A program made the translations under genes and the position numbers. A stretch of 64,000 nt of DNA from Candidatus Planktophila lacus (GTDB lineage Bacteria; Actinomycetota; Actinomycetes; Nanopelagicales; Nanopelagicaceae): positions 496,001-560,000 of the forward strand of contig NZ_CP016769.1 in NCBI RefSeq assembly GCF_002287925.1, in the 5' to 3' direction. Position 1 is the first letter of the stretch; each line of letters opens with the position of its first letter. The notes under the pieces are model-generated. The model ran no database searches. It had not been told where the DNA came from and worked only from the letters and a program-made list of their open reading frames with translations. Positions 29,095-63,211 of the stretch are shown here, one piece after another.

Positions 29095-29200
29095 AGGTCA
29101 CGAGTTCTAATCGATAGCCCCGGCTGATTAGACGGCAACCCTCCACCGCGGTGGGGTGCTCCGGGTGACGACCAGGTTTGCATCACACGATGTGAGCAAG
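29095..29200 (+). promoter_or_regulatory. SAM-IV riboswitch upstream of metX
   Basis: The leader matches the actinobacterial SAM-IV type. Outer arm GGTC (29096-29099) pairs with GACC (29170-29173); TCTAATC (29106-29112) pairs with GATTAGA (29126-29132); CCACCGCGGTGG (29143-29154) is a hairpin. Conserved single-stranded blocks AGCCCCGG and CGGCAACCCTCC are present, followed by the GGGGTGCTCCGGGTGACGACC-type core. A further hairpin (CACA/TGTG) lies before the GAAGGA ribosome site, so translation control by SAM is likely. Confidence 0.9.
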
Positions 29201-29216
29201 TGCGTGAAGGAATTAA

Positions 29217-59156: not shown

Positions 59157-61103
59157 CTACCCTACTGTGATCGTAACCGTGCTGCCACGTTTAACCTTCG
59201 TGCCGACCTTCGGAGCGATATTTGTGACCGACTTGACCTTCTTGGCACCGATCTTCTTTACAACAACTTTAAGTTCGAGATCTGTAAGCGCTGCGCGCGC
59301 CTTTGCTTCAGTAAGTGAGAAGACATTAGGGATAAATACAAATTGTGATCCCTTAGAAATCGTCAAGGCGATTTTCTCGCCCTTAGGTAGCGGTGCTCCG
59401 CCTGATGGAACCTGGCTAATAACGGCACCTGCTAAAACGCTTTCGCTAAATTGATCAATTGTTTCGACATCAAATCCAGCTTCAGTTAATTCATTTAGCG
59501 CTTGGTCGGCGGACTTTCCAACATAGGAAACGACATCTAGAGTTTCTACGCCCTTACTTACCAAGATATCTACCGTTGCATCGCGCTTTACTTTCTCACC
59601 TTGCGCAGGGCTTGATGAGATAACAAATCCCTTAGGCGTTCTATCGTTAAAGACTTCCTTTAACTCGCCAACTTTTATTGGAGATTTAGCTAGAAGATTG
59701 ACCGCTGCCTCTGGCGTAAGCCCAACTAGCATCGGAATTACATAACGCTCTGGGCCTTTGGAGATGATCGCCTTTACTTGTCCGCCAGCATCAACTTTGC
59801 CTCCACCTGCAGGATCAGATTCGATAATCTGGCCATCGCCGACTTCTTCATCAAAGCGTTTTTCAGAGATCACCAGCGTTAATCCGAGAGGAGATAGCGC
59901 GCTTAACGCTTGGTTCTCTGTCGCACCGACAATTGATGGCACAACAACACGTGAACCTGGACCGACGAGCGCATACCAACCGAAGATTCCTAGTGAAATT
60001 GCCAGACCGGCTGCGATAAAGCGATTACGACGAACTCGCTTACTTATCTTCTTACGCTTTTTAATCTGCGCCGTTGTTTCGCGCTTTGTCGGCTCTCCCT
60101 TTTCAGGTAATTCATTTGAGTCTTCACGATTTTTCTTTAGCGACACAGTCTTTTCCTTTTCGGCGCGCGCACGTTCACGGCGACTTGGTTTCTTCGATGC
60201 CGGGCGCATCGGAGCAATAGGAATATCTAGCTCCAAACTCATCTGTTTTTGATTTGGGTCAAGCGATTGTGCGATAGCGCTGAGCGCGGCATGGAATTCG
60301 CCGGCATCTTTGGGGCGGCCATCAGGATCTGAATTTGTAGCGCGCTGAATCAGTTGATCGAGTTCGGCAGGAATACCGGTTTTCTTTGTACTCATTAGCG
60401 GCACGCGTTCGTTAACGTGCATATATGCGATCTGTATTGGCTCATCACCTGCGAATGGTTTTTCGCCAGTAAAGATCTCAAATGCGGTAATTCCAGCGGA
60501 GTAAACATCGCTACGTGCATCTGCAATTCCGCGTTGAACTTGCTCGGGGGATAGGTATGAAACGCTGCCGAGTATGACGCTGGATTCGGCGGTCATCGTT
60601 GTGCCAAGCAGCGGCCCCTTTGCTAAACCAAAGTCCGCGATCTTGATTCTTCCTTCTTTAGAGATCAAAATATTTTCGGGTTTAATATCGCGATGGACAA
60701 TGCCAACTTTATGCGCTGCAGCAAGTGCGCTCAAGACAGGTAACAGAAATTGAATTCCGTTAGCTACCGAGAGTGAACCTTGCTCATTTAAATATTCGCG
60801 AAGGGTGTGGCCCTCGACCATCTCCATTACTAGAAAGACTGCAGGCGTACCGTTCTGATTCCACCCTTGATCTTGTACCGAAACAATGTTGGGATGAGAT
60901 AACGCAGCTGATGCTTTGGCTTCGCGAATAAAGCGTTCTACAAATTGTTCATCCTGAGCAAGATGGGGGTGCATTATCTTTACCGCCACTTTGCGATCTA
61001 AGCGGGTATCAACTGCCTCATAAATTGTTGCCATTCCACCTGCCGCCATCTGGCGAAGGAGCTGATAGCGCCCATCAATTAGCTCGCCAGTTAGATCGGA
61101 CAT
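59157..61103 (-). CDS. pknB: Ser/Thr protein kinase with four PASTA domains (PknB type)
   Basis: A 648-residue membrane kinase. The kinase domain (about 10-270) has GGMATIYEA (glycine loop), catalytic K42, HRDIKPENIL and ADFGLAKG. A basic, charged linker leads to one membrane helix (RFIAAGLAISLGIFGWYAL) and four extracellular PASTA repeats that bind muropeptides, ending in a short tail. It should couple wall state to growth and division. The ATG at 61103 is preferred; a longer frame to 61220 would enter the P-loop kinase gene, whose stop is 10 bp upstream. Confidence 0.93.
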   Translation of the reverse strand: MSDLTGELIDGRYQLLRQMAAGGMATIYEAVDTRLDRKVAVKIMHPHLAQDEQFVERFIREAKASAALSHPNIVSVQDQGWNQNGTPAVFLVMEMVEGHTLREYLNEQGSLSVANGIQFLLPVLSALAAAHKVGIVHRDIKPENILISKEGRIKIADFGLAKGPLLGTTMTAESSVILGSVSYLSPEQVQRGIADARSDVYSAGITAFEIFTGEKPFAGDEPIQIAYMHVNERVPLMSTKKTGIPAELDQLIQRATNSDPDGRPKDAGEFHAALSAIAQSLDPNQKQMSLELDIPIAPMRPASKKPSRRERARAEKEKTVSLKKNREDSNELPEKGEPTKRETTAQIKKRKKISKRVRRNRFIAAGLAISLGIFGWYALVGPGSRVVVPSIVGATENQALSALSPLGLTLVISEKRFDEEVGDGQIIESDPAGGGKVDAGGQVKAIISKGPERYVIPMLVGLTPEAAVNLLAKSPIKVGELKEVFNDRTPKGFVISSSPAQGEKVKRDATVDILVSKGVETLDVVSYVGKSADQALNELTEAGFDVETIDQFSESVLAGAVISQVPSGGAPLPKGEKIALTISKGSQFVFIPNVFSLTEAKARAALTDLELKVVVKKIGAKKVKSVTNIAPKVGTKVKRGSTVTITVG

Positions 61104-61113
61104 ATCTGCAATT

Positions 61114-61650
61114 TTAGGTAGTGAGAATGAAATCTGCCTTTTCACGCGTTGAGTGTTGTAAGAAATATTCGGCTTGTGTTCCAAGCCACTTTTGCATCCG
61201 CTCATGCATCTGCGCGCCATCGCGATCTATTACACGTTTTAAGCCATCTGTGGGGTCAATCTCCATCCAAATTAGAGCTGCAAATCGATCTTGCAACTCT
61301 TTATCTCCGCAACCAACTCCCTCGAGAATTAGGAGATCGCTAACCGGCAGTTCTTCACTTTCACCGAAGGAAGAACTCTCCCAGTTATACCTTTGAATTT
61401 TGGCGGGAGATTTTGCTTCATGTTGGCTAACTAGGTATTGCAGAATCGTGGAAAGGTCTTTCGATAGAGCGTTATCCCAGCCGTCGTACAAGTCATCCAT
61501 ATGAATAACTTGTAAAGACATCTTGTTACTTAGGGCTAAGAAAATTTCATGAGCCAAGGTTGTTTTCCCCGCCCCAGCTGGCCCATCAATTGCAATGACG
61601 GGCCGCGACTTCTCCTTACAGAGATCGGCTAGCGCTGCGATGAGCTCCAT
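61114..61650 (-). CDS. Uridine-kinase-like P-loop kinase downstream of pnuT
   Basis: A 178-residue small-molecule kinase. Walker A is GPAGAGKT (23-30); HMDDLYDGW follows, as in uridine kinase/phosphoribulokinase-like proteins, then LLILEGVG and a lid region with R residues (RVIDRDGAQMHERM). It overlaps the upstream pnuT gene by 35 bp, so both are made from the TPP-riboswitch transcript. PnuC-type importers work with a kinase that traps the vitamin inside the cell; a thiamine kinase or pyrophosphokinase role is therefore proposed. Known thiamine pyrophosphokinases look different. Confidence 0.75.
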   Translation of the reverse strand: MELIAALADLCKEKSRPVIAIDGPAGAGKTTLAHEIFLALSNKMSLQVIHMDDLYDGWDNALSKDLSTILQYLVSQHEAKSPAKIQRYNWESSSFGESEELPVSDLLILEGVGCGDKELQDRFAALIWMEIDPTDGLKRVIDRDGAQMHERMQKWLGTQAEYFLQHSTREKADFILTT

Positions 61651-62206
61651 ACCATTTGCTCCATCCCATAGCCGCTAGCACTGTGAAAGTAATATAAAGC
61701 ACTGAAGTAAAGAGTAAATCCTGTGATGCATAAAGTGCTACATATCCAGCATCTACGACCAACCAGATAATCCAACTTTCAAACTTTTCATAAACCATCA
61801 AAATCTGTGCTGAAAGTGAACCGAAGAATAGAATCGCATCAGCAAAGGTTGATGCCGCACCCCAGTATTTAAGTAGCGGTGCTAGAGCCAGGGTTGCCAA
61901 AATTATTGCAATTACAACATATGCGCGATGGCTGCTCTTCAATCTTCCAGGCTTTGCGCCACTTGGTTCCCATCCAAACCAACCTGCAATTGCAGCGATG
62001 ATAAATACGATTTGAAGGGCGGCGCTGGCGTAGAGCTCCCATTGGAAGAAGAGAATTCCGTAGAGAACTGAACTTAGCGCCCACCAGGGCCAAGTAATTC
62101 GTTTACCGGTTATGCCAAGTGCAACTCCGATGAAAGAGGCCATTACCGCGATTAGTTCGAGATAAGACAGTTCGTATCCCCAAATAGTTAAAAATGTAGA
62201 TGACAT
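61616..62206 (-). CDS. pnuT: PnuC-family transporter, probable thiamine importer PnuT
   Basis: A 196-residue membrane protein with about seven hydrophobic helices and tryptophan-rich loops (WEPSGAKPG, GMGWSKWYG) of the PnuC family. PnuC homologues carry nicotinamide riboside, riboflavin or thiamine; the one under a TPP riboswitch is called PnuT and takes up thiamine by facilitated diffusion. The riboswitch at 62215-62299 reaches to within 9 nt of the ATG, so the thiamine assignment is strong. It follows crtB with 99 bp between coding regions. Confidence 0.88.
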   Translation of the reverse strand: MSSTFLTIWGYELSYLELIAVMASFIGVALGITGKRITWPWWALSSVLYGILFFQWELYASAALQIVFIIAAIAGWFGWEPSGAKPGRLKSSHRAYVVIAIILATLALAPLLKYWGAASTFADAILFFGSLSAQILMVYEKFESWIIWLVVDAGYVALYASQDLLFTSVLYITFTVLAAMGWSKWYGAHRSASRSL

Positions 62207-62214
62207 AGTTTTAC

Positions 62215-62299
62215 CCTTTCCGCATCCGCATTACCGGACGGGTCAAGCGGTCGATCTGAATTTCAGATCCTCTCAGCCGTTTCAGCGGCTCCCGCGAGA
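62215..62299 (-). promoter_or_regulatory. TPP riboswitch (THI element) before pnuT
   Basis: On the minus strand the leader runs GCGGGAGCC, then CTGAGAGGATC (62276-62266), a variable hairpin formed by ATCTGAA/TTCAGAT, then GACCGCTTGACCCG, CCGGTAATGCGG and GATGCGGAAAGGG, all blocks of the TPP aptamer in order. The last block contains the purine-rich GGAAAGGG ribosome site, so ligand binding should block translation directly. The element starts 7 nt after the crtB stop. Confidence 0.93.
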
Positions 62300-62305
62300 T
62301 TTACT

Positions 62306-63211
62306 TTAGCGCAAACGCGCTGCAACGGCGCTTATATAAGCCGCGAAAGCCACTCGCGCTCTGCGAGCTGTCGAAGTCTTGGCGCGCTTATTAAAGATGT
62401 CGTAACCAATTTTTTCTACTTCATCAACGATTCCACAGTACAACTCACTGGCTGCGCGGATACATGGCTGGCTGGTCTTATCTAGTAGCGCAATACCTGG
62501 TTCGGCAGCCTTCTGTAGTTGGCGAACGCGAGCGATCTGAAACTTAAGAGCGCTAATTATCTCCGGAGTTAACTTACGCGCTTCCAACATTTGACGAGTT
62601 ACGCCGTGTTCGGCAAGTTCTTGTAGCGGCAAGTAAACGCGGCCGCGATCTAAATCCTCACCCACATCGCGAATAAAGTTAGCGAGCTGGAAGGCAACGC
62701 CCAGATTCTTTGCAGCTTCTAAAGAATTAACAGTATCTCCCCCCAAGATCGGCACCATCTGAAGACCAATAACTGCTGCAGATCCATATACATATTCATA
62801 AAGATCATCAAAAGTTTGGTACTCAGTAACAGTTAGGTCCATCTCCATCGAGTGTAAGAAATCTACGAAATGTTGGTGGGGGATATCAAAGCGCTGCACC
62901 GTATCAATTAGCGCACGACCAACGAGATCTGAACTTTCACCGGTTTTTAAACCGCGCAATACATCAGAACTCCATGCGCGAAGTACTTCTGCTTTCTCTT
63001 GAGCAGTTAACGTTGAGGCTAAATCATCGACGATCTCATCGGCATAACGTGCAAAACCATAAAGCGCGTGAACAAATGGTCGCTTGCTCGCTGGTAACAA
63101 AAGAGTTGCTAGGTAATAAGTCTTGCCGTGCAGAGAGTTGAGACGTTTGCACTCGGAATAAGACTCCCGTAGTTGCGGGTCGGTAATCCCTGCAGCGCTT
63201 AACTCACTCAC
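62306..63211 (-). CDS. crtB: Phytoene synthase
   Basis: A 301-residue squalene/phytoene synthase family enzyme that joins two geranylgeranyl diphosphates. The first aspartate motif is DEIVD (58-62) in FARYADEIVDDL; the second is NFIRDVGEDLDRGRVYLP near residue 180. It overlaps nothing but starts directly (0-nt spacer) at the crtI stop, so the two genes are cotranscribed. The product feeds carotenoids, and in related freshwater actinobacteria retinal for rhodopsin. Confidence 0.94.
   Translation of the reverse strand: MSELSAAGITDPQLRESYSECKRLNSLHGKTYYLATLLLPASKRPFVHALYGFARYADEIVDDLASTLTAQEKAEVLRAWSSDVLRGLKTGESSDLVGRALIDTVQRFDIPHQHFVDFLHSMEMDLTVTEYQTFDDLYEYVYGSAAVIGLQMVPILGGDTVNSLEAAKNLGVAFQLANFIRDVGEDLDRGRVYLPLQELAEHGVTRQMLEARKLTPEIISALKFQIARVRQLQKAAEPGIALLDKTSQPCIRAASELYCGIVDEVEKIGYDIFNKRAKTSTARRARVAFAAYISAVAARLR

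Follow-up and report, generated by a model that had tools for sequence, protein, structure and literature searches.

Which substrate does a P-loop kinase phosphorylate when its gene follows a TPP riboswitch and a PnuC-family transporter gene? In the window (the whole 64,000-nucleotide stretch analysed here), riboswitch, pnuT and kinase gene form a minus-strand array flanked by a phytoene synthase gene and the gene for a PASTA protein kinase:

59157–61103, minus strand: PASTA Ser/Thr protein kinase gene, flanking and outside the system (PF00069 and four PASTA domains)
61114–61650, minus strand: candidate thiamine kinase gene, 178 aa, P-loop, PRK06547-like (NF005115, E=2.5e-25; uridine-cytidine kinase fold)
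61616–62206, minus strand: pnuT, predicted PnuC-family thiamine importer, 196 aa (PF04973, E=1.4e-37; TIGR01528, E=1.1e-21)
62201–62305, minus strand: TPP riboswitch (THI element), divergent (RF00059, 41.8 bits, E=1.5e-6)
62306–63211, minus strand: phytoene synthase gene (crtB), flanking and outside the system (PF00494, E=7e-70)

Part of this array has a precedent. Passages of Kang et al. 2017 (PMC5301498) propose a riboswitch and PnuT as the thiamine uptake route of thiamine-auxotrophic acI actinobacteria, the most abundant bacteria of most freshwater lakes, and report that almost every enzyme of thiamine biosynthesis and salvage is missing; the passages of that paper retrieved by term make no mention of the adjacent kinase, and neither a published assignment of it nor a described alternative thiamine kinase was found in the open-access literature. 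The riboswitch with PnuT and the thiamine auxotrophy of acI were already known in 2017, and the assignment of the kinase appears to be new. The gene probably encodes a thiamine kinase, which would convert thiamine to TMP and leave ThiL to finish TPP, within a TPP-repressed thiamine salvage operon. As acI cannot make vitamin B1, the candidate would fill the previously unassigned phosphorylation of the imported vitamin.

The kinase gene starts with an ATG at 61650, preceded by GGAG and located within pnuT, so that the two genes overlap by 35 bp. This overlap had been proposed in the preliminary description of the locus, whose interval of 61114–62299 proved correct within a few bases and whose THI element directly before a PnuC-family gene is recovered by the RF00059 and PF04973 matches. 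Orthologue comparison places the start of the PASTA kinase at a conserved MSDLTGEL, leaving 10 bp between its gene and that of the candidate kinase, and crtB is the same neighbour in relatives. The Rfam scan of the window also returned a SAM-IV riboswitch (29096–29208, plus strand, 99.2 bits).

The RF00059 match spans all 105 model positions, and its 3′ end extends to the Shine-Dalgarno sequence and start codon of pnuT. Its score does not reach Rfam's gathering threshold (54.3 bits), and default scans therefore miss the element: at that threshold no TPP riboswitch was called at 62201–62305. A whole-genome RF00059 search also missed it, probably through a loose first look, as 41.8 bits should pass. 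RF00059 is present at the same place in 57 of 58 homologous pnuT leaders (20/20, 19/19 and 18/19) from 13 genera by assigned labels, with 26–45 bits in the 57 relatives, and an alignment of 54 leaders contains compensatory stem changes, on both sides, in 9 of 18 predicted pairs. Conserved leaders and stem covariation thus establish that the match is not due to chance. The pnuT leader element has the conserved aptamer core of RF00059 with supported stems; for the closing stem P1, flank pairing did not exceed that of shuffles or slid controls, with alignment ends uncertain, and the pairing tests give no support to a P1 that sequesters the ribosome site. The pnuT-type TPP riboswitches of the order (62201–62305 and leaders L095–L134) form a divergent group, all below 54.3 bits and without detected P1 pairing, and would escape default annotation; among relatives, the scored TPP elements of the thiO, ykoE and cytX types exceed the cut-off.

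The best family match of the candidate kinase is NF005115 (PRK06547), annotated as 'hypothetical protein'. Although its 88.9 bits fall below the cut-off of 173, no other listed match comes within about 16 orders of magnitude of it, and judged by sequence the protein is a divergent PRK06547 relative. ThiK (TIGR02721) and ThiN/TPK (TIGR01378) are both missing from its listed NCBIfam matches, in agreement with the earlier view that it is not a recognised enzyme of either type. An AlphaFold model (mean pLDDT 95.4) has uridine-cytidine kinases as its nearest Foldseek neighbours (UCK2, E=8.4e-12, TM 0.74), with the P-loop and overall fold as in uridine kinase, and the sequence shows remote similarity to uridine kinases and 1rz3. 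The label 'uridine-kinase-like' is therefore apt for the fold but not for the family, as the best family match is PRK06547. The candidate and PRK06547 homologues have the motifs DG-x-AG-x-GK, DDLYxGW, YDW, EGxG and RDG in common, and the P-loop, D52, W58, W90, E110, R139 and R143 are invariant across distant homologues. The DHPDAFD stretch with which uridine kinase binds its nucleoside has no counterpart and falls in a gap of the kinase family profile.

To place the kinase in a pathway, we surveyed thiamine enzymes in 151 genomes of the order, all from one family by assigned labels. ThiC was found in two genomes and ThiE over cut-off in six, leaving 145 genomes without ThiE; nearly all of these bacteria must therefore import thiamine. 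PF04973 (NMN_transporter) covers the whole of PnuT (residues 14–186), whose substrate would be thiamine, judging from the riboswitch and from the auxotrophy indicated by the absence of ThiE and ThiC. ThiL is over cut-off in 133 genomes, with some match in 149, the weakest of which may be other superfamily members; in the genome of the window it scores 192.5 bits, over cut-off, and is encoded away from the operon (genome G000, contig 1, 893350–894150). Since ThiL acts on TMP and ThiE is absent, something must convert thiamine to TMP. ThiK is above cut-off in none of the 151 genomes, with no match at all in this one. The preliminary description had proposed to look for absence of thiN and thiL, of which the first half holds throughout (ThiN matched in 0 of 151 genomes) and the second does not, ThiL being retained in nearly all; the standard thiamine pyrophosphokinase that would have spoken against the proposal was found neither in this genome nor in its 150 relatives. 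A ThiK-like relative of about 300–340 aa occurs in about 54 genomes, at 55–78 bits against a cut-off of 299. It was rejected as the missing enzyme: it is absent here, present in two ThiE-containing genomes that lack the kinase (G034 and G110), and does not track need. A role as HMP or thiazole kinase was rejected on the grounds that 145 of 151 genomes lack ThiE, which joins both halves.

The absence of ThiN would also suit a candidate that acts as a thiamine pyrophosphokinase, taking thiamine to TPP in one step as ThiN does and completing the pathway alone. We consider this improbable, because ThiL is kept in nearly all of the ThiE-less streamlined genomes, where it has no other evident source of substrate, and because its fold and active-site pattern match those of enzymes that transfer a single phosphate, uridine kinase among them. 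The presence of ThiL makes thiamine to TMP the likely reaction rather than pyrophosphorylation. The original proposal of a new thiamine (pyro)phosphokinase within the uridine kinase fold accordingly survives as a thiamine kinase, favoured by the absence of ThiN and ThiK and by the linkage to pnuT, and not as a pyrophosphokinase.

This linkage is strict. The kinase occurs in 145 of the 151 genomes and a close PnuT in 135, and in all 134 genomes having both the two genes are adjacent on the same strand, pnuT first, with gaps of −41 to +100 bp; two odd cases reflect contig ends, the kinase gene of G135 and the transporter gene of G132 each lying at an edge. The co-occurrence of kinase, pnuT and THI element anticipated earlier is thus borne out by this adjacency and by the 57 riboswitch-bearing leaders, and the contrary outcome, a lack of conserved linkage in relatives, was not observed. 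In G140 (contig 1, 131494–132059), pnuT is apparently split by a frameshift into two overlapping pieces beside an intact kinase gene, which may be an assembly error.

Presence of the kinase also follows the expected need. It is found in 143 of 145 ThiE-less genomes as against 2 of 6 with ThiE (Fisher p=1e-5, phylogeny not corrected for), and the two ThiE-less genomes without it are G132, with its contig end, and G141, which is 79% complete. The well-supported kinase-less genomes (G034, G059, G110 and G134) all contain ThiE. In the three of these that were examined (G034, G110 and G134), a TPP riboswitch and thiO-thiS-thiG immediately precede the PASTA kinase gene, in the position held elsewhere by pnuT and the kinase (L176:4514-6759, L174:3183-5461 and L177:485-2730). 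G034 and G110 carry a further riboswitch before a CytX-like hydroxymethylpyrimidine transporter gene, and no thiamine importer under a riboswitch was seen in these genomes. Such cells would be able to make TMP via ThiE, leaving no evident need for a thiamine kinase, and the shared slot suggests replacement of a biosynthesis locus by a salvage locus, or the opposite exchange.

Eight ThiE-less genomes contain the kinase and lack a close PnuT. A riboswitch model (R1) derived from the pnuT leaders located a TPP riboswitch elsewhere in each of them. The element heads a gene for a ThiB-type thiamine-binding protein (TIGR01254, over cut-off) in G058, G075, G080, G088, G108, G113, G123, G129 and G007, adjoined, where the contig is long enough, by one for a ThiP-type permease (TIGR01253, below cut-off). 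The kinase is likewise retained in two genomes with both ThiC and ThiE, namely G007, with its ThiB-ThiP pair, and G043, where a TPP riboswitch heads YkoE. Retention of the kinase where pnuT is lost and another TPP-regulated importer is present indicates that it follows thiamine import and not PnuT itself. In the kinase tree, ThiB-type genomes occupy at least two separate places among those of the PnuT type (the G129 row is very divergent and its placement unsure), which implies that ThiB-ThiP replaced PnuT at least twice, with the orthologous kinase retained. A weak R1 match in G080 (L171:1935-2752, 24.4 bits), lying across the start of a CcdA-like cytochrome c biogenesis gene, is probably due to chance.

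These patterns bear on the likewise improbable alternative of a nucleoside kinase, for uridine/cytidine or another nucleoside, whose gene only happens to sit in the operon, as the structural match to uridine-cytidine kinases and the distant sequence similarity noted above might suggest. For such an enzyme, one would expect neither an association (linkage or co-occurrence) with three different TPP-regulated importers nor its absence where the cell makes TMP, and the nucleoside-binding segment is the very part that falls in the profile gap.

The association extends beyond the order. An Aurantimicrobium MAG (L200) carries a TPP riboswitch that exceeds the gathering score and is followed by ykoE, ykoD, ykoC and a PRK06547 kinase gene; five f36-family genomes (G239, G260, G331, G339 and G347) have this array too. 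Two of the ykoEDC-linked kinases pass the NF005115 cut-off (L294, 200 bits; L200, 184 bits) and one does not (L295, 160 bits); the two that were compared are 30–34% identical to the candidate in the window. As YkoEDC may carry thiamine or a pyrimidine precursor, this linkage is support rather than proof, and most PRK06547 genes outside the linked lineages are not beside thiamine genes. Across Actinomycetes, a PRK06547 kinase is present in 59 of 71 YkoE-bearing genomes (no clear one in the other 12) and in 73 of 154 without YkoE (p=2.5e-7), an association that is descriptive only, given shared ancestry. None of the 247 Actinomycetes genomes sampled passes the ThiN cut-off; weak partial ThiN matches in 103 of them cover about 50 positions, mostly within reading frames of about 400 aa, which we take to be perhaps SteA-like division proteins.

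Where pnuT is absent, the kinase gene still lies between the carotenoid genes and the PASTA kinase gene, without a riboswitch there, so that conserved gene order could account for part of the adjacency; that it accounts for all of it, in streamlined genomes where the kinase has an unrelated role, is the least probable reading, since kinase absence coincides with ThiE presence and the ykoEDC link recurs in other families.

We therefore return to the thiamine kinase. When TPP is low, the riboswitch would leave pnuT translatable and PnuT, as its family suggests, would admit thiamine down its gradient; the kinase would then phosphorylate thiamine to TMP, trapping the vitamin, and ThiL would convert TMP to TPP. 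In this role the kinase would stand in for both ThiK and ThiN without being orthologous to either. The PRK06547 family probably supplies the same step in many other thiamine-importing Actinomycetes, and we lean towards regarding it as the thiamine kinase of actinobacteria in general, forming its own P-loop lineage beside ThiK and ThiN. This reading may give a function to a large 'hypothetical' family of Actinomycetes, a class in which no sampled genome passes the ThiN cut-off, and, if true, would change the prediction of B1 auxotrophy and exchange from genomes.

Among known systems, PRK06547 provides the best family match and the motifs of the candidate, as a family without assigned function. 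Uridine-cytidine kinases (PDB 1uej and 3asy) have the fold and P-loop in common with it at about 20% identity, with DHPDAFD left unaligned. ThiN/TPK likewise salvages imported thiamine, but by one-step pyrophosphoryl transfer and with a different fold. Closest in predicted chemistry is ThiK (YcfN) of E. coli, which makes TMP from thiamine and ATP for ThiL to act on; ThiK is an aminoglycoside-phosphotransferase-like protein, whereas the candidate kinase is an unrelated P-loop protein.
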